In this document: positions 49,367-60,321 of the stretch, piece by piece | Layout of the letters: every line of letters starts with the position of its first letter | How positions within the stretch are numbered: position 1 is the first letter of the stretch | Assembly (NCBI GenBank): GCA_903862655.1 | Contig: CAIOZA010000046.1 | Coordinates: forward strand, 1-63,245 | Length of the DNA: 63,245 nt | Direction of reading: 5' to 3' | From: an uncultured Ignavibacteria bacterium | GTDB lineage: Bacteria > Bacteroidota > Ignavibacteria > Kapaibacteriales > UBA2268 | The notes under the pieces: model-generated | Told to the model about the DNA's origin: nothing | Seen by the model: the letters and a program-made list of their open reading frames with translations, nothing else | Databases searched by the model: none | Program-made: the position numbers and the translations under genes

Positions 49367-49561
49367 AAAATCTGCTTAATTAATTGATAATTATTGAAAT
49401 TAAAAGATACGCAATTTACGGAAATAAGATTATTTATAAAAATAAGCTGGTGAAGTGACTATAAATTTCTGTTTGAATTACATATATTCAGGAGCTGTTT
49501 AAAATAGCAATTTAGGGGATATTTGTACCTAGACTAATATTTTGAATCATGTGCCTGGAAC

Positions 49562-49967
49562 TTATTTATTTATTGATATGTGATTTTTGTAATTAAATAC
49601 TTGCAAGTCATTTAATACCGATTGAATCTGATGAATATGCTTATCATTAGTCCAAACCATCAATGAGTTTTCAATTGCGATAGTTGCTATAATGACATCT
49701 TGAAATGGGACAGTTACTCCACTAACCCTTAGTTTAAACAAATTCTTGCCAAGAGTTTCCAATATTCTTTCAGCAATATCAACTTCCGGGAATGATTTTA
49801 AAAGATTTTAATATTGAGTCCAAATCCTTTTCATTTCTAGCACCATGGCACAATTCAGCTTTAACAACGCCACAAATATATACCGGAAAATTTAATATTA
49901 CAGATTTAATATTTTCATCTCCTGTTTTCCAAAAATCGATAATTATATTTGTGTCAATCAATATCAT
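49562..49967 (-). pseudogene. vapC: VapC-like PIN-domain toxin, frameshifted
   Basis: PIN-domain ribonucleases cleave tRNA or other RNA, and the antitoxin blocks them. Frame 1 (49779-49967) gives MILIDTNIIIDFWK with the first Asp (D5) and VVKAELCHGA with Glu38, then stops after KSFKIIPGS. The next frame continues the fold: EVDIAERILETLGKN, VPFQDVIIATIA and VWTNDKHI, with the last two acidic residues. A single extra base in the CCGGG run at 49786-49790 explains the break: without it ATT-CCC-GAA-GTT-GAT reads through. Joined, the protein has about 134 residues, the usual VapC length. All four acidic sites survive, so the break is recent, a sequencing error, or phase variation. Confidence 0.8.
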
Positions 49968-50179
49968 ATCAAGCTAATTTCTCGTAGCTTATTAATGCTT
50001 TCTTCATCGATTGTAATTTTACCGGCTAGATTGAAAAAATCTGAAAATGATTCTAATTTTTCTGAGTGATTTTGTTCTTCTGTAATTGTTATTATTACAT
50101 TTTTTCCTATAAATGGTTTCAACTCTGAGAAATTGATATTATTTGAGTTTATTTGTTTTCTAATTGCAACTGATAACAT
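49964..50179 (-). CDS. vapB: VapB-like antitoxin
   Basis: A 71-residue protein directly before the PIN-domain toxin; its stop overlaps the toxin ATG (ATGA), the classic vapBC arrangement. The N-terminal part may form the DNA-binding fold (KPFIGKNVIITITEE). The C-terminal tail DFFNLAGKITIDEESINKLRE is the typical toxin-neutralising segment. AAAGGTG precedes the ATG. With the toxin broken it may persist as an orphan regulator. The 266-bp gap after it to 50445 is AT-rich. Confidence 0.78.
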   Translation of the reverse strand: MLSVAIRKQINSNNINFSELKPFIGKNVIITITEEQNHSEKLESFSDFFNLAGKITIDEESINKLREISLI

Positions 50180-50406
50180 TTAACACCTTTTAATTTATAT
50201 AACCAAAATTAACAAATAAATTATAAGAAAAAAAATTATTAACTCTTCCTGTCAGTAAAAGCACAAATAATTTATAATTCCGTACTTACTGATATGATCT
50301 ATCTTAATATCTATTAACGAATCACACATTAATTAAATCTATTTTTGAACCGATAATTATAATTCATTTGTTACGTCAATTTCTATTAAATTATTGTTAT
50401 TTTTTG

Positions 50407-50414
50407 TAAGTTTG
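50407..50414 (+). promoter_or_regulatory. Possible -7 element of the metal locus
   Basis: TAAGTTTG matches TAnnTTTG, 31 nt before the TTG start of the Cys-rich protein. No -33 element is clear. Confidence 0.4.
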
Positions 50415-50445: not shown

Positions 50446-51120
50446 TTGAAAAAAAGACTAATATATATAATATCATTGTTTCTATTGCTGATATTCCCCA
50501 TCACTGCAATCGGTATGGATATTTCTGTGCACAAATGCAAACACTCAGGCAACCTTCATTTCTCTTTTTATCAGTTAGATTCAAAAAATCAGTTCGATGA
50601 CTGCTGCTGCAAATCTGAAACAAAAGAGGTTGAAGCACAGAAAGTTAAGTCCTGCTGCGAAAGTGAAAACAACGAAACAGCAAAACCATTGCATAAAGCC
50701 ATAGAAAAGAAACAGGAATCAACAGAAATTCATTCATGTTGCTCGAAAGCAAAAAAAGCCGTCAAGAAGAAACCAACTCTTGAACTATCTGTTAAAACTA
50801 ATATTTCGCAATCTACAAAGACAATAACTAAAGTAATTAACTGCGAAAATGGAATATCGAAGCCAACTACATGCTGTGATATTTCAAAAGTAGCTTTTTC
50901 TTTAACTTCAGCACAGGTTCCAGTTATCAATACTGAGAAAACAATCAAAGAAAGTGTTTACATTCCGAACTTATCTTTGATAACGTTCATCGGCTATCAG
51001 ACATCAGACAAATCAACCAGCTTAAAAATTGACTATCCTCTAAAGGAACCGGTTAATAAGATTATAGCATTCATATCGCTTCAATCCAATCAAAAGGATG
51101 ATTCTGACAGTCATTCCTAA
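50446..51120 (+). CDS. Cys-rich exported protein, HYC_CC_PP-like
   Basis: A 224-residue protein with a signal peptide (KKRLIYIISLFLLLIFPITAIG). The mature start DISVHKCKHSGNLHFSFY resembles the HYC_CC_PP family of Bacteroidota, small proteins often found before TonB-dependent metal receptors. Cysteine clusters follow: Cys31, CCC at 53-55, CC at 70-71, CC at 98-99, and a later TTCC. Lys/Glu-rich linkers separate them. Such clusters would bind thiophilic metals such as copper in the periplasm. The start is a TTG with no good ribosome site. It is the first gene of a metal-handling locus on this strand. The metal is not proven. Confidence 0.7.
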   Translation: MKKRLIYIISLFLLLIFPITAIGMDISVHKCKHSGNLHFSFYQLDSKNQFDDCCCKSETKEVEAQKVKSCCESENNETAKPLHKAIEKKQESTEIHSCCSKAKKAVKKKPTLELSVKTNISQSTKTITKVINCENGISKPTTCCDISKVAFSLTSAQVPVINTEKTIKESVYIPNLSLITFIGYQTSDKSTSLKIDYPLKEPVNKIIAFISLQSNQKDDSDSHS

Positions 51121-51262
51121 TTTTTCTATCATTATTTATGGTAGAAACTTCCAATAATAATAAAATCAAATAAAGAAAATATCATTCTGATAGTAACGAA
51201 GTATTTCAGGTAACTATAATACGGATTCGTTAGTCAGAATAGAAAAAACAAAAATAGATTTC

Positions 51263-51426
51263 TGCATGAGAGATTATGTGAAAAGTCTGATTTAGATGTC
51301 ATTCCGAACGAAGTGAGGTGCCGTAGGCCTGGCGTAGCGAATCTAGTCCGCATGAAAACTAGATTCTCACGGTCGCTGCGCTCCCTCAGAATGACAAATT
51401 CGTAGTTTTTACACAGCCGCATGTAC
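51263..51426. repeat. Dispersed hairpin repeat, copy 1
   Basis: An inverted-repeat element in the 348-bp gap before the TonB receptor gene. The core runs from GTCATTCCGAACGAAG (51298) to CTCAGAATGAC (51395); its ends are complementary (GTCATTC with GAATGAC), and AATCTAG (51340) pairs with CTAGATT (51359). Outer arms at about 51263-51290 and 51400-51426 are also roughly complementary. The 37 bp at 51359-51395 match copy 2 at 55233-55269 with two differences. It resembles REP/MITE-like hairpin elements. Confidence 0.75.
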
Positions 51427-51468
51427 AGAAGCGACAATAATTAATAAAAAAAACCTTATGGAAAAAAA

Positions 51469-53718
51469 ATGAAATACAATAGAAGAAAAATAATAATCTT
51501 CAATATTTGTTTGTTTATTCTTGGATTTTCATCCTATGGACTTTCTAAAGAGCTTAACGGAATTGTATCCGGTCTCGGTGCGGACAATAAATCTGTTCCA
51601 CTGATAAAAGCTTCAGTCCATTGGATAGGAACTGGTATCGGTGCAATTACCGATAAATCAGGAAAATTCCAGATAGCATCAACAAATAAATCAAACAAAC
51701 TTGAAGTATCATATATTGGATACAAGAAAGACACATTAGAAGTGTCAGATTATTCTAAACCGATTGATGTCGTTTTAAAAACCGATCTGACTCTGGACGC
51801 AATCACAGTCAATGCAGTTCAGCCTTCAAGACTTTTGTCAAACAGCACTATTAAAACTGAATCAACAACATTGCGTGGCTTGCAGAAAGCAGCCTGCTGT
51901 AATTTATCCGAGAGCTTCCAGACGAATCCTTCGGTTGACGTATCCTTTACTAATGCCGTTACAGGCGCTAAACAGATTCAACTGCTCGGATTGCAGGGAG
52001 TATATATTCAGGCTCTTAATGAACAAGTGCCATCAATGAGGGGTTTATCCGCCAATCTCGGACTAGAGTATGTGCCAGGTCCTTGGATGGAATCAATTCA
52101 GATATCCAAGGGTTTGGCATCCGTTACAACAGGTTATGAATCCATCAGTGGACAAATGAATATCGAATATAAAAAACCTGAAAATGAGCCACCCTTATTT
52201 TTGAATGCTTATATTAATAATATAGGCAGAGGTGAAGTCAATCTTACTTCTGCAATGAAACTCAGCGATAATGTAAGTACGATGTTCTTTGGTCACACCA
52301 GCTTCAATCAGGTTAAGATCGATGAGAACAAAGATTCATTCCTGGATCGTCCTTTATCCAAGCAGTTCAATTTTATGAACAGATGGAACATAAGCGATGG
52401 TATCTGGGAATCAAGAACTATTCTAAAGGGACTTTATGATGAGCGTAACGGAGGACAGGCAGGGTATTGGCCTAATAAGGACAGTAACTATTATGGCATG
52501 CAGATGAAGTCGCAGAAATTCGAATTCTTAACCAAGAATGGTTTTATTTTCCCAAGTTCATCATACAGCAGCCTTGGTACTGTTTTGTCATTGACTCACT
52601 ACAAGGTTGATTCATATTTTGACCAAGTGCTATATAATGGCGAACAAAACTCAATTTATGCCAAGATAATGTATCAGTCACAGCTGTTTGATTCAACTCA
52701 TAAATACATGGTTGGACTGAGCTATACTTCCGATAACTTTATCGAAAATCTTCAATCATTGGGCAAAACTCAACTTAAGTATTCACCCAAACTCGAATCT
52801 ATACCGGGAGCTTTTTTGGAATATACTTATTCAGGTATTCAGGATCTTACGCTGATGGCAGGTTTCAGAGCTGACTTTCCGAATAAATTCGCTAGATTTC
52901 TTACTCCTAGATTCCATGCACAATACAGATTCAACGAGAATACATCATTAAGAGCTTCTGTTGGAAAAGGTTACAGAATCGCCAATATTCATGCTGAGGA
53001 TATCGGAATTTTCGCCAGTTCCCGTAAGTTGTTCATGGATGGGAAGCAATTTCCTGAAGAAGCATGGAATTATGGTATGAACGGAACAACAATTATTCCT
53101 TTGTTTGGTATCGATTTTACAGTGAATGCTGAATTCTATAGAACTGAGTTTAAGAATCAGATTATAGTCGATATGGAACAGAAGCAAACCGAAATGCACA
53201 TCTACAATCTAAAAGGTCAGTCATATTCGAACAGTTTCCAGATAGATGTTAGTGCAGAACCTATAAATGGTTTTATAGTTACAGCAGCTTACAGATTAAA
53301 TGATGTCAAGATGACAATCAATGGTTCACTCTTGGATAAGCCATTACAGAGCCGTGAAAAGGGATTTCTTAATCTTGCTTACTCAACTTTCGGAGATGAA
53401 TGGACTTTCGACTTTACAGCTGAATACAATGGTAGCGGGAGATTGTTATCACTTGGATTTCTTGATACTACAATTTCAAAAGAACCATCAAATTGGATTG
53501 GAAGTTCTCCGTCATTTATGCTTTATCATGCTCAGATAACAAAGAAATTCAAGAACTTTGATTTATATTTGGGCGGAGAAAATCTTTCGAACTTTACGCA
53601 GAAAGAAGTTATTCTTTCGCCGGATAATCCCAGAGGCCCATACTTCGATGGAGCATTGGTTTGGGGACCTGTTATCGGTCGCATCATTTATTTAGGTATG
53701 AGATTAAGCATCTATTAA
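51469..53718 (+). CDS. TonB-dependent receptor, heavy-metal type
   Basis: An outer-membrane receptor of 749 residues. A signal peptide is followed by a carboxypeptidase-regulatory-like domain (about 28-105; GIGAITDKSGKFQI, VSYIGYKKDTLEV). The plug (about 110-245) includes KAACCNLSESFQTNPSVDVSF with Cys143-Cys144, TGAKQIQLLGLQGVYIQALNE and SISKGLASVTTGYESISGQMNI-type sequence. A 22-strand barrel follows, ending in IGRIIYLGMRLSIY. The ACCNLSESF plug motif is found in Bacteroidota receptors that sit with HMA-domain and CC-motif proteins, pointing to copper or another soft metal. The substrate is inferred from context. The ribosome site is weak. Confidence 0.88.
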   Translation: MKYNRRKIIIFNICLFILGFSSYGLSKELNGIVSGLGADNKSVPLIKASVHWIGTGIGAITDKSGKFQIASTNKSNKLEVSYIGYKKDTLEVSDYSKPIDVVLKTDLTLDAITVNAVQPSRLLSNSTIKTESTTLRGLQKAACCNLSESFQTNPSVDVSFTNAVTGAKQIQLLGLQGVYIQALNEQVPSMRGLSANLGLEYVPGPWMESIQISKGLASVTTGYESISGQMNIEYKKPENEPPLFLNAYINNIGRGEVNLTSAMKLSDNVSTMFFGHTSFNQVKIDENKDSFLDRPLSKQFNFMNRWNISDGIWESRTILKGLYDERNGGQAGYWPNKDSNYYGMQMKSQKFEFLTKNGFIFPSSSYSSLGTVLSLTHYKVDSYFDQVLYNGEQNSIYAKIMYQSQLFDSTHKYMVGLSYTSDNFIENLQSLGKTQLKYSPKLESIPGAFLEYTYSGIQDLTLMAGFRADFPNKFARFLTPRFHAQYRFNENTSLRASVGKGYRIANIHAEDIGIFASSRKLFMDGKQFPEEAWNYGMNGTTIIPLFGIDFTVNAEFYRTEFKNQIIVDMEQKQTEMHIYNLKGQSYSNSFQIDVSAEPINGFIVTAAYRLNDVKMTINGSLLDKPLQSREKGFLNLAYSTFGDEWTFDFTAEYNGSGRLLSLGFLDTTISKEPSNWIGSSPSFMLYHAQITKKFKNFDLYLGGENLSNFTQKEVILSPDNPRGPYFDGALVWGPVIGRIIYLGMRLSIY

Positions 53719-53749
53719 TTCTATTCACATTCAAATAAAGAGGTATATA

Positions 53750-54463
53750 ATGAAAATAAATATAAGCAATTCCGGTTTATTCCTTACAGTCTTAGCTATG
53801 GCTATGCTCGGAATAATGTCATTATCGCAGGCACAAGTTGTAACTCAGCCACTTTCGGGGGTATCTACAACAGCAAAAGTTTACACATATATTCACATGC
53901 TTTCTCAAACTCAGAAAAAAGACATCAGATACATTATCATTAAAGCCTCGAATGGTGATGTAAAATCCTGTTTCGATGCTTGTGATGTTTGTTATCTTGC
54001 AAACAAAGGATATGCACAGTCCGGGAGTCAACTCAGATGCAACAACTGTGGCAAAACTTTTGTGATAGATGAACTGGGCACTCAGGGTGTCGGTGGCTGT
54101 TGGCCAGGCCTCCTTCCTCATACTACCGATGCACAGAATGTTATAATTAACATTTCTGATCTTATCGGCGGAGATAAATACTATCCCACAAAAGCAGTTA
54201 CAGCTGTTCAGGATGAGCCGGTAAGAGAAATGGCTTTAAGTTTCAATTGGTTTATTAAGTCCGATCTTCTTACTATCACGATGGATAATGCGAGTGAAAG
54301 AAATATATTAATATTCAATATTTCAGGAAAACTCTTTAAGACGCTGGCATCATCGGCTAATCAGGTTTCAGTAGATGTTTCTGATTTGACAGCAGGTGTT
54401 TACTTGCTTTCAGTAGAAGACCATGGCAGAACAGCCAGCCAGACAATTGTTATTAACAGATAA
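53750..54463 (+). CDS. DUF2318 metal/Fe-S domain fused to a T9SS sorting domain
   Basis: A 237-residue exported protein. After a signal peptide (LSQAQ) comes a DUF2318 domain (about 55-125): RYIIIKASNGDVKSCFDACDVCY, then LRCNNCGKTFVIDELG and GVGGCWPGLLPH. The family's five cysteines are Cys78, Cys81, Cys97, Cys100 and Cys117, with an extra Cys74. Residues about 165-237 form a T9SS sorting domain (LTITMDNASERNILIFNISGK, LTAGVYLLSVEDHG, QTIVINR). DUF2318 normally occurs in membrane proteins of iron/copper uptake (FTR1/P19-type) systems, so a T9SS-exported form is unusual. AGAGG precedes the ATG, 31 nt after the receptor gene, so one operon is likely. Confidence 0.82.
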   Translation: MKINISNSGLFLTVLAMAMLGIMSLSQAQVVTQPLSGVSTTAKVYTYIHMLSQTQKKDIRYIIIKASNGDVKSCFDACDVCYLANKGYAQSGSQLRCNNCGKTFVIDELGTQGVGGCWPGLLPHTTDAQNVIINISDLIGGDKYYPTKAVTAVQDEPVREMALSFNWFIKSDLLTITMDNASERNILIFNISGKLFKTLASSANQVSVDVSDLTAGVYLLSVEDHGRTASQTIVINR

Positions 54464-54497
54464 AATTTAACTAAGTCTAAAATTTGAAAGAAAAATA

Positions 54498-55154
54498 ATG
54501 AAAAAGATATATTTATACATATCTATATTTGCTTTAGCATTAACTATGCTATTATCCGGTTGTAAAAAGGACAGTACACCTATTGATCCTAACGTTGTTA
54601 CAACAGTTCCTGTAATTAATACTATTACAGCAGATAAAACAACCATTATGTATGGCAATGAGGATCACGCAATAATCACATGTAATGCTTCTGGTGGAAA
54701 TCTTAAATACACATGGGAAGTTGATCTGGGGGATATTATACCCCAAAATACTGATCGTTCTAAAGTCAGCTTTACAGGGGCAGCCTGCTGTGTCGGCGAA
54801 AAGACAATAAAGTGTACAGTCTCTAACGATAAAGGCAGTGTCAGCAAGAATATTATAATTACAATACTGGAAAACGTAACTGTTCCCGATATTATTTCGA
54901 TTGGTGTTGACAATACTCAGATCAAAGCTGATGGCATAGATGCAGCAAATTTGGTTTGCTATGCAATTGGCGGAAAACTCAATTATAAATGGGAAACAGA
55001 TTGCGGGAAATTAACTCCGGTGCCGAGCGACAGTACAAGAATTACTTATACTGCAACAACAGAATGCATTGGTGATAAAACAATCAAATGCACAGTCAGC
55101 AATGAGAAGGGGACTATTTCTAAAACACAGGTTATAACTGTGGTTGCTAAATAA
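54498..55154 (+). CDS. Ig-like two-repeat lipoprotein
   Basis: A 218-residue predicted lipoprotein (lipobox LSGC, Cys22). The mature part is two homologous Ig-like repeats of about 85 residues. Each has an ITCNASGGNLKYTWE or LVCYAIGGKLNYKWE opening and an IGDKTIKCTVSNEKG ending, so each repeat carries a disulfide-type Cys pair plus an extra Cys (CC in AACCVGEK; ECIGDK). The repeats are clearly internal duplicates. It begins 34 nt after the DUF2318 gene. It may be a surface or periplasmic partner of the receptor; no direct family assignment was made. Confidence 0.75.
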   Translation: MKKIYLYISIFALALTMLLSGCKKDSTPIDPNVVTTVPVINTITADKTTIMYGNEDHAIITCNASGGNLKYTWEVDLGDIIPQNTDRSKVSFTGAACCVGEKTIKCTVSNDKGSVSKNIIITILENVTVPDIISIGVDNTQIKADGIDAANLVCYAIGGKLNYKWETDCGKLTPVPSDSTRITYTATTECIGDKTIKCTVSNEKGTISKTQVITVVAK

Positions 55155-55192
55155 TACTTTGTGAGCGTTCTAACGTTGAGCAATGTAAATGA

Positions 55193-55300
55193 GTCATTCT
55201 GAACGCAGTGAAGAATCCAGACCGCATTAATACTGGATTCTCACGGTCGCTTCGCTCCCTCAGAATGACAGACTCATCGTTTTCGCATATTCTCATGCAT
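55193..55300. repeat. Dispersed hairpin repeat, copy 2
   Basis: A second copy of the inverted-repeat element. The core runs from GTCATTCTGAACGCAG (55193) to CTCAGAATGAC (55269). GAATCCAG pairs with CTGGATTC, and the ends GTCATTCTGA and TCAGAATGAC are complementary. A downstream arm (about 55270-55300) resembles the reverse complement of the left outer arm of copy 1. It lies between the lipoprotein and barrel-HMA genes. Confidence 0.75.
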
Positions 55301-55372
55301 TGGAATGACAAAAAATAAACTAAGCACATACTAAATTAACAAAAATTTGAAATATCAAAAGTACTCAATATC

Positions 55373-56641
55373 ATGAAATCAAAATTAAGGATTCTGTCCT
55401 TTCTATTATTTGTTTTTGCATCAATCCTAATAACAACAACTGAATCCGATGCTCAGTGCTGTGCCGCTGGAAATCCATCCAGCACAAATTGTTCTATCGA
55501 TCAGGGTGGCAAGAATAGTCTTCAGATAAGCTATTTCCACATGTACTCTTCGTCGGACATATATTACGAAGGTGTAAATCAATCAAACTATAAATACGCC
55601 ACAAGCGATTTCAATTTCTCATCTCTTGCTTTATCCTATGGAATATCGAATGATCTTAGATTGACTGCTGATCTGGGTTACTTCTTGAATAAAAGCCAGA
55701 CTTTCACCAATGGATACAATCGCCAGACTTCAGGATTGTCCGATGCGACTTTTGGAATAAGTTACCAAACTTACAAAAGTACAGACAAATTATTCGATAT
55801 AACCCAGTCATTAAGATTTACTGTACCTGTCGGACAGTTCAATCAGGAATATGAAGGAGTAACTCTGCCAATAGATTTTCAGCCATCATCGGGAAATTTC
55901 AAATATAATCTTGGATTAGTTCTATCCAAAAGATTTAACGGAAGTCCATTTTCACTAGTTTCTGTTAATTCGATGGAAGTTTCGCAATTCATAGAGACAG
56001 AAAATTCCAGATATAAATATGGAAATCTTTATAACGTATCATTGATTGGAAGGTATGCTTTTGAGTTTGGACTTACTGCCTCTCTACAGATGCGTTGTGA
56101 GGTAAGAGAGAAAGCACTGAATGGACCGAAATCTCAGGACAATACATTCAATTACATCAATGCTTCCGGAGGATTGGTAGCGTTTATATCTCCACAATTA
56201 TCATATAATTTCTACAAGGATTTTGGTTTCACACTTCAGTACAATCATCCCCTTTATAAAAATGTGAACGGACTACAGCTTACAAATAAATATTCTATAT
56301 CCGCAGGTCTGACCAAGAGCTTCAACTTTTCTTCAGATGAAAAGCCAATCGCTGAGATCGACCGTGATGCATCATTGTCAAAGATGTCGATCAAAGTCAG
56401 CGGTAACTGCGAAATGTGCAAAGCCAGAATTGAGGAAACTGTCAACGAAATCAGCAATGTAGCCTCATCAGACTGGAGCCCCGAAACTAAGGAATTAATA
56501 GTATATTACAAAGATAATAAGCCCGATGTCGATGGGATTGAGCAGGCTCTAGCCGCAGTCGGTCACGATACAGACAAGTACAAAGCCAAGCTGGATGTTT
56601 ATGACAAGCTCCCTAAATGCTGTCTATATAGGAACAAATAA
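55373..56641 (+). CDS. Outer-membrane barrel with C-terminal heavy-metal-associated domain
   Basis: A 422-residue exported protein. The signal peptide is followed by a Cys-rich N-terminus (Cys29, Cys30, Cys40), then a beta-barrel-like domain (about 48-320) with repeated amphipathic strands (LRLTADLGYF, FDITQSLRFTVPVG, SLIGRYAFEFGL). After a linker comes a complete HMA domain (about 335-405): MSIKVSGNCEMCKARIEETV with metal-binding Cys346 and Cys349, then DWSPETKELIVYY and ALAAVGHDTDKYKA, ending LPKCCLYR (Cys416-417). HMA domains bind Cu(I) and similar ions. A barrel-HMA fusion would hold the metal site at the periplasmic face of the outer membrane. No ribosome site is seen. Confidence 0.8.
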   Translation: MKSKLRILSFLLFVFASILITTTESDAQCCAAGNPSSTNCSIDQGGKNSLQISYFHMYSSSDIYYEGVNQSNYKYATSDFNFSSLALSYGISNDLRLTADLGYFLNKSQTFTNGYNRQTSGLSDATFGISYQTYKSTDKLFDITQSLRFTVPVGQFNQEYEGVTLPIDFQPSSGNFKYNLGLVLSKRFNGSPFSLVSVNSMEVSQFIETENSRYKYGNLYNVSLIGRYAFEFGLTASLQMRCEVREKALNGPKSQDNTFNYINASGGLVAFISPQLSYNFYKDFGFTLQYNHPLYKNVNGLQLTNKYSISAGLTKSFNFSSDEKPIAEIDRDASLSKMSIKVSGNCEMCKARIEETVNEISNVASSDWSPETKELIVYYKDNKPDVDGIEQALAAVGHDTDKYKAKLDVYDKLPKCCLYRNK

Positions 56642-56677
56642 CAGAATAAATTTATACCAGGCACTATAGAATCATAG

Positions 56678-56703
56678 AGGCAGGATGTCCTGCCTTTTTT
56701 TAT
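56678..56703 (+). terminator. Terminator of the metal locus
   Basis: A perfect 8-bp stem (AGGCAGGA with TCCTGCCT) with a two-base loop and a run of T, 37 nt after the barrel-HMA stop. Confidence 0.9.
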
Positions 56704-56742: not shown

Positions 56743-59700
56743 CTATTTCTTAGCCATCTCAAATTTCTTCTTCATTTCTAATATCATACTTCTTAGCTCA
56801 ACTATTTCTTTCTGCTGCTTTTGTACCTCATTCAGAAGCATGGCATTCACACGGTTGTAGTAAACAGTTAAGAGGTTTCCATCCTTATCGTAAGCAACAA
56901 GATTTGGTGCGACTTTAGCCACTTCCTCAGCGATTAAGCCGTACTGGGTTGACTTATCGCCATCAGCGAATTCATCTTTATATTTGAATGTAACAGGTCT
57001 TAATTTCATCAGTACGTTGCTGGCGTCTCCCATGTCGTTAATATCTTCTTTGAATCTGGCGGATGAAGTTAATGTTCCTAACTTGCCTGAGGCATTAACG
57101 TAAACGGCAACACCGCTGGCGCTTGTTTGACCAGAGATACCTGCTAAATATGTTGCGGTTTGAGAAGATCCAATTTTAATAACATCTGACTCAGCTGCGG
57201 TGCCAGTATTGGCTATGTAAATATTATTTCCGCCAGTTGTTTGATTTGTTCCTGCATTTGAACCCAATGCAGTGTTCCAGGTTCCTGTAGATTGATTTAA
57301 TGCGTGGTAGCCAATACCGGTATTGTCATCACCAGCTTGATTTAATTTCATAGCTTCCAATCCAAAAGAAGAATTTGCTTTACCGGTAGTATTAGTAAAT
57401 AATGCCTTAGAACCAACAGCTGTATTCCATTTAGACTGATCACCTGTTAGTGTTCCTTTACCATTGTTATATAAAGCAGAATCACCAACTGCGACAAGAT
57501 TACCAGATGTTGTATTGTAAAATAGAGCATTGGTTCCAACTGCAACATTAGACCAACCTGTAGTGTTGCAATAAAGTGATTGAAATCCATTTGCAGTGTT
57601 AAGAGATCCTGTTGTATTGGAACCTAATGCGTCACAACCAACAGCTGTGTTAATAGCGCCAATTGTGTTGTAAAAGAGTGCACCAGATCCATTTGCTGTG
57701 TTAAAATAGCCGGTTGTATTGAATTTGAGAGACTGAAATCCATTTGCAGTGTTAGAAATGCCACCTGTGTTGGAATAGAGGGACTTATATCCATTCGCGG
57801 TGTTATAATTGCCTGTAGTATTGAAATAAAGAACCTGATTTCCATTCGCTGTGTTAGAACTGCCGGTTGTGTTGGAGTAAAGAGCTTTTGAACCTACCGC
57901 TGTATTTCCAATACCAGTATTGTTGTATAAAGCAGAATCACCGATTGCAACCAGATTGCCGGAAGTAGTATTCTTATAGAGAGAATAGGTTCCAACTGCT
58001 ACATTGCTCCATCCAGTAGTGTTGAAGTTTAGGGCACCAGTTCCATTTGCTGTGTTATATGCACCCGTTGTATTGTAATAGAGTGCAGATACACCAATAG
58101 CTGTGTTACCATTGCCTGTCGTGTTGTTCATTAGGGAAAAATTTCCATTCGCAGTGTTAATAACGCCTGTTGTATTGGAAGAGAGAGATGAAGATCCATT
58201 CGCAGTGTTATTAAATCCCGTTGTGTTGAGACTGAGGGCGCCAGAGCCATTAGCTGTGTTACCATTACCTATAGTGTTGGAGTATAGGGCACCAGTTCCA
58301 TTTGCTGTGTTCTCCCTGCCAGTTGTGTTGGAATGAAGAGCCTGATATCCATTCGCTATGTTATAATAACCTGTTGTGTTAGAATAGAGGGCACCAGAAC
58401 CATTTGCTATGTTACTATAGCCAGTCGTGTTAGAGAAGAGTGCAGAGTCACCTGTTGCCGTATTTAGGAATCCAGTTATATTTTTATAAAGAGTAGCATT
58501 CCCAGTTGCAACATTTGACCTACCTGTTGTATTTGAATAAAGTGCTTGAAATCCATTTGCAGTATTGTTGGAACCTGTCGTGTTAGAGAAAAGAGCTTTA
58601 GAACCTACAGCTGTAATTCTTGTGCCAGTATTATTATATAAAGCAGAATCACCAATAGCTACCAGATTGCTACTTGATGTATTCTTATAGAGAGAATTGG
58701 TTCCAACTGCTACATTGCTCCATCCAGTAGTGTTCGAAGAAAGTGCATAAGCTCCATTTGCTGTGTTATATGCACCCGTTGTATTGTAATAGAGGGTAGT
58801 AAGACCAATTGCTGTGTTACCATTGCCTGTTGTGTTGGAAGTGAGAGACCTAAATCCATTGGCAGTGTTTTCAAAGCCGGATGTATTGTAATAGAGGGTC
58901 TGGTACCCACTCGCAGTGTTTTGCCCCCCCGTTGTATTGGAAAAGAGGGAATGCAATCCATTGGCAGTGTTTTCACCTCCTATTGTGTTTGAATAGAGGG
59001 AAGCAAAACCAATTGCTGTGTTACCACCGCCTGTTGTATTGGTTAAAAGTGATTTGGATCCAATTGCTAAATTTCTTGACCCAGTATTGTTGTATAAAGC
59101 TGAGTCACCAACAGCAACTAGATCGGACCCGGATGTATTTCTATAGAGAGAATTGGTTCCAAATGCTACATTTGACCAACCTGTTATGTTAGAATAAAGT
59201 GCATTACTGCCTATTGCATCATTATTGGAACCAGAGGAATTTGAGAAAAGTGATTTGGATCCAATAGCTAAATTTCTTGAACCAGTATTGTTGTATAAAG
59301 CTGAGTCGCCTATAGCAACCAGATTGCTTGCAGATGTATTTCTATAGAGAGAATTGGTTCCAACTGCTACATTTGACCTGCCTGTTGTATTTGCATATAA
59401 TGATTTAATTCCTACTGCAGTATTGCTATTATCGCCATCATCGCTATTGCCGGATCCACTGCCTAAAAATACATTTGAATTGTCTGATTTCCCATCTGTT
59501 AGTTCATCTATTGATTTTGCACCAAGAGAAGGAACTCCGGTTATTTTTGTCCATGCAACATCTGTAACTTTTAGATTAGTAATTGCACCATCTGCAACTT
59601 TTGCTGTTGTTACTTTTCCATCTCCAATAGTAGGATTTGGATAGGTTCCTGCTAGGTCACCACCTGCATTACCTGATGGTGGAATACTGAATGTCTTTGA

Positions 59701-60321
59701 TATATTAATAGTTGCTACGGGTCCATTCGGATTGGTTATAGCAATATTGTTGTCAGTATTCATTACACCCTGTATGCCTGTTCCACTGCCACCTGACGAG
59801 CTGATTGTTATAGTCTCACCCTTTCGGTTTATAGTTGTTCCACCGCCTCCTTCAAGTATAATATCTCCTTCGGCACCATTGAGACTCCTTACTACTCCTC
59901 TAGCTGAATTTGTTAATCCCTCTGCTATTGAAGCTGTATCTGTATATTTTGCTTTTTGCGCATAGGGTACTGATGTTAGCTCAGTTCTTGGAACAAACTC
60001 ATTGCCTGCTCCAACAGAAACACCTAACCAATAAACTTTATCAAAAGGCAGATTGAGAGCCGAATTTTTTCCAATAACAAGATTGAAATATCCACCTTTA
60101 GATAGGACATTGGTGATTGTTTCAGAGTATATCGGTGTTCCACCTGTGGATGTATTGTAAATCCTAACTGAAACAGTATGCTGAGCATCTGCAACAGCCA
60201 GTCCTTTATCGTCGGAAAGATAGCCTTGATAATTCATTGTATTTGGAAGTTCGGCTTGTAATATCCAGGTTGACATTAATAGACAAACGATTAAGCTGAT
60301 ATAGGTTCTGAAATTAGACAT
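56743..60321 (-). CDS. Fibre-like protein with 17-residue head repeats and S74 chaperone domain (copy 1)
   Basis: An 1192-residue exported protein. The signal peptide leads to a conserved N-terminal domain (LPNTMNYQGYLSDDKG, PIYSETITNVLSKGGYFNLVIG; about 25-135) and a linker with a GGGGTTINRKGETITISS turn. Residues about 295-1010 are around forty 17-residue repeats of the form NTANGxxxLxxNTTGxx, akin to YadA/Hep_Hag head repeats. A larger unit (WSNVAVGTNSLYKN, LVAIGDSALYNNTG) recurs inside them. The C-terminus has the S74 intramolecular chaperone domain with SSARFKEDI (catalytic Ser/Lys dyad) and YGLIAEEVAKVAPNLV, then a coiled coil. It probably trimerises and cleaves itself. AGGA lies before the ATG. 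Confidence 0.82.
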   Translation of the reverse strand: MSNFRTYISLIVCLLMSTWILQAELPNTMNYQGYLSDDKGLAVADAQHTVSVRIYNTSTGGTPIYSETITNVLSKGGYFNLVIGKNSALNLPFDKVYWLGVSVGAGNEFVPRTELTSVPYAQKAKYTDTASIAEGLTNSARGVVRSLNGAEGDIILEGGGGTTINRKGETITISSSGGSGTGIQGVMNTDNNIAITNPNGPVATINISKTFSIPPSGNAGGDLAGTYPNPTIGDGKVTTAKVADGAITNLKVTDVAWTKITGVPSLGAKSIDELTDGKSDNSNVFLGSGSGNSDDGDNSNTAVGIKSLYANTTGRSNVAVGTNSLYRNTSASNLVAIGDSALYNNTGSRNLAIGSKSLFSNSSGSNNDAIGSNALYSNITGWSNVAFGTNSLYRNTSGSDLVAVGDSALYNNTGSRNLAIGSKSLLTNTTGGGNTAIGFASLYSNTIGGENTANGLHSLFSNTTGGQNTASGYQTLYYNTSGFENTANGFRSLTSNTTGNGNTAIGLTTLYYNTTGAYNTANGAYALSSNTTGWSNVAVGTNSLYKNTSSSNLVAIGDSALYNNTGTRITAVGSKALFSNTTGSNNTANGFQALYSNTTGRSNVATGNATLYKNITGFLNTATGDSALFSNTTGYSNIANGSGALYSNTTGYYNIANGYQALHSNTTGRENTANGTGALYSNTIGNGNTANGSGALSLNTTGFNNTANGSSSLSSNTTGVINTANGNFSLMNNTTGNGNTAIGVSALYYNTTGAYNTANGTGALNFNTTGWSNVAVGTYSLYKNTTSGNLVAIGDSALYNNTGIGNTAVGSKALYSNTTGSSNTANGNQVLYFNTTGNYNTANGYKSLYSNTGGISNTANGFQSLKFNTTGYFNTANGSGALFYNTIGAINTAVGCDALGSNTTGSLNTANGFQSLYCNTTGWSNVAVGTNALFYNTTSGNLVAVGDSALYNNGKGTLTGDQSKWNTAVGSKALFTNTTGKANSSFGLEAMKLNQAGDDNTGIGYHALNQSTGTWNTALGSNAGTNQTTGGNNIYIANTGTAAESDVIKIGSSQTATYLAGISGQTSASGVAVYVNASGKLGTLTSSARFKEDINDMGDASNVLMKLRPVTFKYKDEFADGDKSTQYGLIAEEVAKVAPNLVAYDKDGNLLTVYYNRVNAMLLNEVQKQQKEIVELRSMILEMKKKFEMAKK

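Follow-up and report, generated by a model that had tools for sequence, protein, structure and literature searches.

The window analysed here is the whole 63,245-nucleotide (nt) contig CAIOZA010000046.1 (C46) of an uncultured Ignavibacteria bacterium (assembly GCA_903862655.1), whose genome comprises 4.07 Mb and is 98 % complete. Five open reading frames (ORFs), all on the + strand, occupy positions 50446 to 56641 and encode, in order, a Cys-rich exported leader, a TonB-dependent receptor, an FtrD-like protein with a type IX secretion system (T9SS) sorting tail, an immunoglobulin (Ig)-like lipoprotein (IgLP) and an outer-membrane barrel with an HMA-like tail (barrel-HMA). A reading made from the sequence alone had placed these genes, with these features, on one strand; all five ORFs were confirmed and its coordinates proved exact. 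By sequence comparison the five genes are two separately conserved modules that have been joined, and no single conserved set, with the leader and the receptor forming module A and the remaining three genes module B. The locus is not a chance pattern, as conserved relatives were found for every part. The gaps between the ORFs measure, in order, 348, 31, 34 and 218 nt.

50446..51120, + strand: Cys-rich exported leader of the HYC_CC_PP type (ORF; leave-one-out hidden Markov model (HMM), E = 2.3e-13; HYC_CC_PP matches of relatives)
51469..53718, + strand: TonB-dependent receptor with a CarboxypepD_reg-like N-terminal domain and plug Cys143-Cys144 (domain scans; Cys-Cys invariant in 34/34)
53750..54463, + strand: T9SS-exported FtrD-like protein (PF10080, PF18962 and TIGR04183 above cut-off)
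53906-54184, + strand: FtrD-like domain within gene 53750..54463
54260-54454, + strand: T9SS sorting tail within gene 53750..54463
54498..55154, + strand: IgLP, Ig/PKD-like lipoprotein with two repeats and a CC-x7-C signature (Pfam scan; family alignment of 19)
55373..56641, + strand: barrel-HMA (AlphaFold model; fold match to 4RL8; alignment of 25)
about 56381-56602, + strand: HMA-like domain at the C terminus of the barrel, within gene 55373..56641

The conserved co-occurrence anticipated for the five genes holds for each module and fails for the complete set, which is rejected as a conserved unit because the modules occur apart across genomes. A leader lies within three genes upstream of the receptor, on the same strand, in 26 of 34 close receptor loci (window excluded; loci partly cut by contig ends, 30 having 700 nt upstream), and a 27th, L066, was recovered by three-frame search. 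The FtrD-T9SS gene, the lipoprotein and barrel-HMA stand together in 4 of 100 genomes, those of the window, G008, G009 and G014. In G009 and G014 the receptor is found on one contig and module B on another, while G008 has module B and no receptor match; the contigs of G009 are only 5-7 kb long, so the separate-contig case rests mainly on G014. Both modules meet again in L089 (uncultured Bacteroidetes bacterium), where one strand carries genes for CusA, a CusB-like protein, two HMA proteins, Crp, HMA-T9SS, lipoprotein, barrel, leader, receptor and HMA. The contig ends within the CusA gene (679 bits, cut-off 701), and the order of the modules is the reverse of that in the window. Because window and L089 represent two separate joinings, the modules probably work together. 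That they are instead unrelated neighbours, adjacent by chance and with no joint function, is improbable. The separate contigs of G009 and G014 would suit such an origin, and copies of a dispersed palindromic repeat (51290-51402 and 55194-55270), which occupy two of the four gaps, both of them long, make a rearrangement plausible. Against it stand the one-strand joining in opposite order in L089, the loci L090 and L065, in which a leader of this type precedes module B (from farther upstream in L065) with no receptor, and the gap of just 31 nt between receptor and FtrD-like gene in the window.

The following minor features accompany the five genes.

50407..50414, + strand: weak candidate -7 box TAnnTTTG, with a second match from 50340 (regular expression, consensus match only)
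51290..51402, no strand: dispersed palindromic repeat in the leader-receptor gap (55 genome matches including itself)
55194..55270, no strand: second, partial copy of the dispersed repeat in the lipoprotein-barrel gap (sequence; repeat matches; genome match 55213-55270)
56676..56697, + strand: terminator-like hairpin and T run after the last gene (terminator scan)

TAnnTTTG is the Bacteroidota -7 box motif; no -33 box was seen by eye upstream of the leader. The terminator scan returned five sites in the region against a shuffle mean of 3.4, and the Rfam scan of the locus gave no match. Upstream of the locus, on the - strand at 49560-50200, lie broken toxin-antitoxin-like remains with internal stops, an antitoxin-like piece followed by a PIN-like C-terminal piece. 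Downstream, the - strand of 56743-60321 encodes a protein of 1192 amino acids with many TANGxxALxxNTTG repeats that ends in a self-cleaving-chaperone-like part; both neighbours were read by eye.

Leader, receptor and the stop-to-start stem

The receptor matches PF00593 with 69.5 bits (cut-off 27) and the Plug family with 22.1 bits, just below the cut-off of 23.9. Plug residues Cys143 and Cys144 are invariant in 34/34 aligned receptors, window included, while H276 is conserved in 91 % and H483 in 88 %. The motifs CxxxM and HxM are both absent from the window receptor and CxxxM is absent from residues 60-400 of 34 relatives; a search against PDB sequences returned nothing at E <= 0.001. Receptor matches occur at E <= 0.001 in 58 of 60 genomes, distant receptors included. 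Among the 34 close loci, nine have a small HMA gene and two (L050, L066) have CusA at a distance of no more than three genes from the receptor.

The window leader has a TTG start, 11 Cys residues and the C-terminal sequence ...PLKEPVNKIIAFI..., and a signal peptide or hydrophobic N terminus was judged by eye. It matches no Pfam or NCBIfam family, HYC_CC_PP (NF047658, cut-off 28 bits) included; its assignment comes from an HMM from which the window leader and its closest relative, L065|0, had both been left out and which recovers the window leader with the E value listed above. Six of ten leader-group members match the NCBIfam HYC_CC_PP model, one of them above cut-off (L070, 44.2 bits), and the other four do not. 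At E <= 0.001 HYC_CC_PP has no match in the window's own genome and is matched in 117 of 395 sampled genomes of the phylum. Thirty of these loci were fetched and 29 could be parsed, a set that is not independent, as 21 of the 30 come from one genus, g110. The gene after the leader encodes a receptor with the Cys-Cys plug in 21/29, a CusA-like resistance-nodulation-division (RND) pump in 7/29 and a MerT/HMA-like protein in 1/29, the last two labels being read from sequence. A PP motif is present in 26/29 of these phylum leaders, at 54-61 residues from the last CC in all 26. An ending shared by many is ...ANAPPLFKLY..., which comes close to the RAPP motif of CruR (PMC9426467). DUF2946 was not matched at E <= 0.1 by the window leader or by six relatives.

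In CutF, copper binding to the nascent protein was found by experiment to open a stem that hides the next start codon (PMC9973294). The corresponding stem was sought between the mRNA around each leader stop and the start of the next gene, scoring the duplex against dinucleotide shuffles at p <= 0.05. For gaps of 33-150 nt it is present in 34 of 49 leader junctions as against 21 of 234 control junctions of the same loci (Mann-Whitney 2e-15), the controls being taken from the ORF calls of this analysis, with no curated genes; in a wider set with any gap below 420 nt, 32 of 54 junctions reach p <= 0.05. By origin the stem occurs in 23/29 phylum and 11/20 order-level junctions (order-level Fisher 1.8e-6), the order-level set being the fairer test although it includes same-genus pairs. 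None of the 34 duplexes starts more than 3 nt past the leader's stop, and each ends at most 20 nt before the next start or beyond it, a nearness that is partly by construction as the pairing stretches span at most 55 and 52 nt. Stem sequences vary by lineage: TTTAGTTCTCCTT pairs with AAGGAGAACTAAA in L040/L041, CTTTCCTAATAATT with AATTATTAGGAGAG in L045 and GATTTTAATGTT with AACATTAAAATC in L194. A consensus stem from one genus has 16 pairs, two of which are changed on both sides, with an unfavourable covariation term (+0.48); the case for the stem thus rests on the comparison between lineages.

Because its relatives head receptor or CusA-like operons and carry the stop-to-start stem, the leader is more likely a regulatory gene of the CutF/CruR type than a part of the metal-capture apparatus. 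In the window it is the first of the gene run, with a Cys motif and, by eye, a hydrophobic N terminus. Several observations weigh against this assignment. Order-level leaders have PP in only 12/29, with spacings of 56-65 in ten of the 12 and of 26 and 80 in the other two, and the window leader has KEP and no PP. The window junction has no stem (z = +0.98), nor have those of the other two leaders that head module-B operons (L065, z = +1.77; L090, z = +0.64). As a guess, the repeat in the 348-nt gap may have disturbed the leader-stem layout of the window. CutF-like proteins in Bacteroidota, and TonB-like and RND genes as frequent neighbours, are already published (PMC9973294), so the idea is partly in print; the literature search found no paper on HYC_CC_PP by name.

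Module B and its genomic settings

The DUF2318 domain of the sequence-only reading is the current Pfam family PF10080 (FtrD-like), matched here with 74.6 bits against a cut-off of 26.3. Export by T9SS, as a type A cargo, which that reading had proposed in general terms for this protein, is supported by the sorting tail (PF18962, 40.4 bits, cut-off 27; TIGR04183, 37.5, cut-off 23) and by SprA, one component of the system, in the genome (881.5 bits, cut-off 200). Its Cys residues are at 74, 78, 81, 97, 100 and 117, the last five of which form a CxxC, CxxC, C pattern in the FtrD-like domain. When the FtrD alignment was compared with the PDB, the best four rows (E <= 0.02) matched the sorting tail only and the rest were unspecific. 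The lipoprotein carries the Cys of a lipobox; it contains two PKD/Ig-like repeats and matches PF00801 with 24.0 bits against a cut-off of 23.5.

In the AlphaFold model of this protein (predicted local distance difference test, pLDDT, 84), a linker of low confidence joins a 12-strand barrel to an HMA-like domain that stands apart. The best match of the model among solved structures, with Foldseek also run, is the COG4313 channel 4RL8 (Z 29.0, root-mean-square deviation 2.0, 258 residues aligned), followed by FapF (Z 25.9), and PF13557 (Phenol_MetA_deg) scores 17.5 bits, below the cut-off of 22. The predicted mature N terminus, with cleavage judged by eye, is QCCAAGNP. Residues Q28-C29-C30 and G33-N34-P35 are invariant in 25/25 barrels, a motif that is partly by construction as the loci were found by the pattern QCC[AT]AGNP and one other. 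For the CxxC HMA domain described in the sequence-only reading, the model gives a separate HMA-like domain and the sequence a CxxC at 346-349; the Pfam HMA (PF00403) score of 19.9 falls below the cut-off of 24.8. The predicted fold of the tail is beta-alpha-beta-beta-alpha, the last strand not being assigned. C termini of barrels with the COG4313-type fold usually face the periplasm.

PF10080 occurs in 8 of the 100 genomes searched, including the window's. In four of these, from genus g21, lipoprotein and barrel-HMA do not follow the FtrD gene; its neighbour in the three read by eye is an OmpA-like protein with Cys-Cys near its start, and in L061 it is a cut gene. For L059, also of g21, neighbours of 1123 and 573 amino acids were considered as CusA and CusB and rejected, being a helicase-like protein and RecJ. 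G015 carries lipoprotein and barrel-HMA with no PF10080 match. The lipoprotein is present in 11 of 54 genomes of the window's family and the barrel adjoins it in all 11.

The pattern search with the barrel alignment yielded 25 named loci. In each of them the barrel gene is preceded, at a distance of at most 1.2 kb, by a lipoprotein gene (25/25; the called neighbour in 21). L079-L082 and G015, G014, G008 and G009 are the same contigs, counted once, with G014 equal to L080. Three types can be distinguished. Type (i) comprises four loci from the window's family with barrel-HMA, FtrD-T9SS preceding in three. Type (ii) is made up of L083-L090 and L102, nine loci where the second gene before the barrel encodes an HMA-like protein; each of these nine proteins matches Por_Secre_tail (E <= 1.7e-4), six above cut-off, and the preceding gene is Crp-like in eight and a leader in L090. 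Type (iii) comprises twelve loci (L091-L101, L103) with varying sets of thioredoxin/ArsF-like, CcdA/ArsG-like, permease and rhodanese homologues, and in six of them (L091, L092, L094, L098, L099, L100) ArsC, ArsM or Acr3 homologues lie within nine genes; these families were identified in L091 and found as homologues in the other loci. Because of these three types, the exported metal domain in the first position is apparently exchangeable, FtrD-like or HMA and T9SS-exported in both cases, and the lipoprotein-barrel pair, judged by its neighbours, also resides in arsenic clusters. In L083-L089 and L102 the Crp-like regulator is encoded directly upstream of the HMA-T9SS gene, and those read have an N-terminal Cys cluster (CSMKSPLF); these regulators are possibly metal or redox sensors.

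More distant barrels were found in 13 loci, of which only L183 has the lipoprotein and nine have a DUF3179 gene within nine genes (family identified in L176). In L176-L186, from other members of the phylum, barrel relatives with Cys-rich N termini (QTCSCAGAP, QACCSAGSP) often stand beside DUF3179 lipoproteins. The DUF3179 genes, together with thioredoxin-like genes seen by eye, would suit a module B engaged in thiol or redox chemistry, moving or repairing small thiols and disulfides in the outer membrane with metals as one client, as would the thioredoxin/ArsF-like, CcdA/ArsG-like and rhodanese homologues in the same gene run of the arsenic-type loci. This role appears improbable: within the close subfamily (QCC[AT]AGNP), 13 of the 25 loci have an HMA-like domain in the barrel or in the exported protein, and the neighbours of the other 12 include homologues of ArsG-like or SO_0444-like permeases or of arsenic genes.

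Copper-related and efflux genes adjoin module B in several genomes. In G014 (L080), genes for CusA, a CusC-like and a CusB-like protein lie directly upstream of the FtrD-T9SS gene; across 27 genomes the number of TIGR00914 matches per genome ranges from 0 to 17, so a chance match in a 20-kb stretch of a genome of about 4 Mb is estimated at a few per cent. NosL lies near the lipoprotein-barrel pair in G007, and in G008 a COX2-like gene (21.7 bits, cut-off 22) and a Copper-bind-like gene (20.6, cut-off 21.2) stand between leader and module B. After its leader, L065 (308-7161) carries genes for proteins resembling cupredoxin, cytochrome c, Fer4_5 and COX2, and then module B, several of the matches being just below cut-off; this is possibly a copper-respiration cluster. 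A differently built FtrD-like protein, with a zinc ribbon and a membrane helix ahead of the FtrD part, has CusA next to it in 11 of the 20 phylum loci that were fetched; it belongs to a different subfamily and serves as context only. In L155-L165, from other families of the class, this protein stands beside CusA, and L155, the one annotated locus, adds heavy-metal-binding-domain and MacB-type ABC genes; it looks like a second conserved metal system.

Metal homeostasis and the direction of transport

The involvement of the locus in metal homeostasis can be stated with confidence, and the sequence-only reading is borne out on this point by the domains, the leader and receptor relatives and the neighbours of module B. 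The metal is likely copper or a similar thiophilic metal. We infer the metal, the direction and the hand-over steps from gene content, domains, predicted fold, module conservation, neighbours and the stem in relatives. The explanation that best accounts for the whole is, tentatively, a metal-homeostasis operon of two joined modules in which module B would buffer metal or move it outward.

In this proposed mechanism the nascent exported leader chain would sense metal via its Cys motifs and pause near a C-terminal proline motif, which in relatives would open the mRNA stem hiding the start of the next gene. The receptor with its Cys-Cys plug would take up the metal or a metal chelate. T9SS would carry the FtrD-like domain with its five Cys residues to the cell surface. 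This domain and the Ig-like lipoprotein, which would sit in the outer membrane, would flank a COG4313-type channel with Cys-Cys at its predicted mature N terminus and, at the C terminus, an HMA-like domain that would reside in the periplasm. Module B would mainly buffer metal at the outer membrane and pass it outward together with adjoining efflux systems. In the most plausible joint picture, regulated uptake by module A would stand beside outer-membrane buffering and disposal by module B.

The complete capture, import and hand-off route of the sequence-only reading is an assumption, and the CusCBA-type neighbours in L080 and L089 and the ArsF/ArsG-type sets in 12/25 loci argue for detoxification or export at least there. 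In an import route the surface FtrD-like domain and the lipoprotein would capture a scarce metal, the receptor, the barrel or both would import it and the periplasmic HMA tail would receive it. TonB receptors normally import, T9SS would set the FtrD-like domain outside and barrel C termini of this fold usually face the periplasm, all of which suits such a route. Ferrous-iron uptake systems are the best-known setting of the FtrD-like domain (PMC6083913, PMC11966278), and copper import is described for TonB receptors preceded by a CruR leader (PMC12914433). On the other side, lipoprotein-barrel pairs lie within ArsF/ArsG-type sets in 12/25 loci, six of them with ArsC, ArsM or Acr3, and an import of arsenic would be senseless; module B stands beside CusCBA-type genes in L080 and L089, and receptor and module B are on different contigs in two other genomes. 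Import is thus unlikely, if a serious contender, and because of the CusCBA-type and ArsF/ArsG-type neighbours buffering or outward transport is considered somewhat more likely for module B.

Apart from the import function of TonB receptors and the iron-uptake context of FtrD, other findings tell against the preferred explanation. Among the matches listed, CusA lies on the FtrD-T9SS contig in 1 of 8 genomes. In the window no efflux gene stands beside the locus, and the best CusA match of the genome is on another contig (G000:C140:4968-8072) with one in-frame stop, either a pseudogene or an assembly error. No ArsC, ArsM or Acr3 homologue lies within nine genes in the other 6/12 arsenic-type loci. 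Pfam HMA is above cut-off in only 2/9 HMA-T9SS proteins, the label of the others resting on an HMM of this analysis, and the AlphaFold model of the FtrD-like protein is poor (pLDDT 60).

A broader, two-part proposal may be put forward as speculative, its parts being doubtful in combination. The first gene of the window may belong to a Bacteroidota family of leaders that sense metal as nascent chains and control access to the following start codon through a stop-to-start stem, and module B may be an undescribed Bacteroidota outer-membrane metal(loid) relay. In this relay a surface metal domain swapped between lineages (FtrD-like or HMA, T9SS-delivered in either case), a Cys-Cys Ig-like lipoprotein and a COG4313 channel tipped with Cys-Cys would act as one unit that passes copper-like metals or arsenic species across the outer membrane. 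HYC_CC_PP, a family named by motifs alone, would gain a testable rule as a translational metal-sensing leader. How metals pass or are retained at the outer membrane of Bacteroidota is poorly understood, and this locus suggests a unit of three parts that recurs in copper and arsenic settings and whose T9SS-delivered metal domain can be exchanged. No description of module B was found in the literature searched, as judged by titles and the starts of abstracts.

Comparison with known systems

Module A resembles the CutF/CruR systems (Rhodobacter capsulatus cutFOG and Bordetella pertussis cruR-bfrG; PMC9973294, PMC9426467) in its short exported first protein with a Cys motif, in a C-terminal proline motif at near-fixed distance and in the TonB receptor or Cus-type RND gene that comes next. 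The stem between leader stop and next start in relatives of the window is similar to that of cutF-cutO. In contrast, the window group has no detectable DUF2946 homology and belongs to the HYC_CC_PP family of Bacteroidota, its motifs are HxC and CC where CutF/CruR has CxxC or CxxxC, and the window itself is without PP and without stem.

The receptor, placed behind a leader in a metal context, is comparable to the copper TonB transporters CrtA and OprC (PMC12914433, PMC8610252). According to PMC12914433, CrtA has no conserved Cys and is characterized by two conserved His residues, whereas the window family has the invariant Cys-Cys plug together with H276 (91 %) and H483 (88 %). The CxxxM-HxM motif of OprC, as given in PMC11213822, is absent from the window receptor.

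The third gene shares the CxxC ... CxxC ... C domain of FtrD with Fe2+ uptake of the FtrABCD and Campylobacter p19 type. Here, however, the FtrD-like protein is a predicted soluble T9SS cargo, and the scan, which covered the five genes, revealed no FtrA-, FtrB- or FtrC-like protein among the other four. The spacing also differs, with CxxC-x15-CxxC-x16-C in the window and CxxC-x13-CxxC-x14/15-C in PMC6083913.

CusCBA-type efflux genes and ArsF/ArsG/Acr3 clusters adjoin module B or the lipoprotein-barrel pair in relatives. Neither the pair nor the T9SS metal protein is known as part of such clusters. In its predicted 12-strand fold the barrel resembles the COG4313 channels (4RL8, Z 29.0) and FapF (Z 25.9), at 13-14 % identity. 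Unlike these, it is predicted to combine that fold with a Cys-Cys mature N terminus, an HMA-like tail and a lipoprotein partner.

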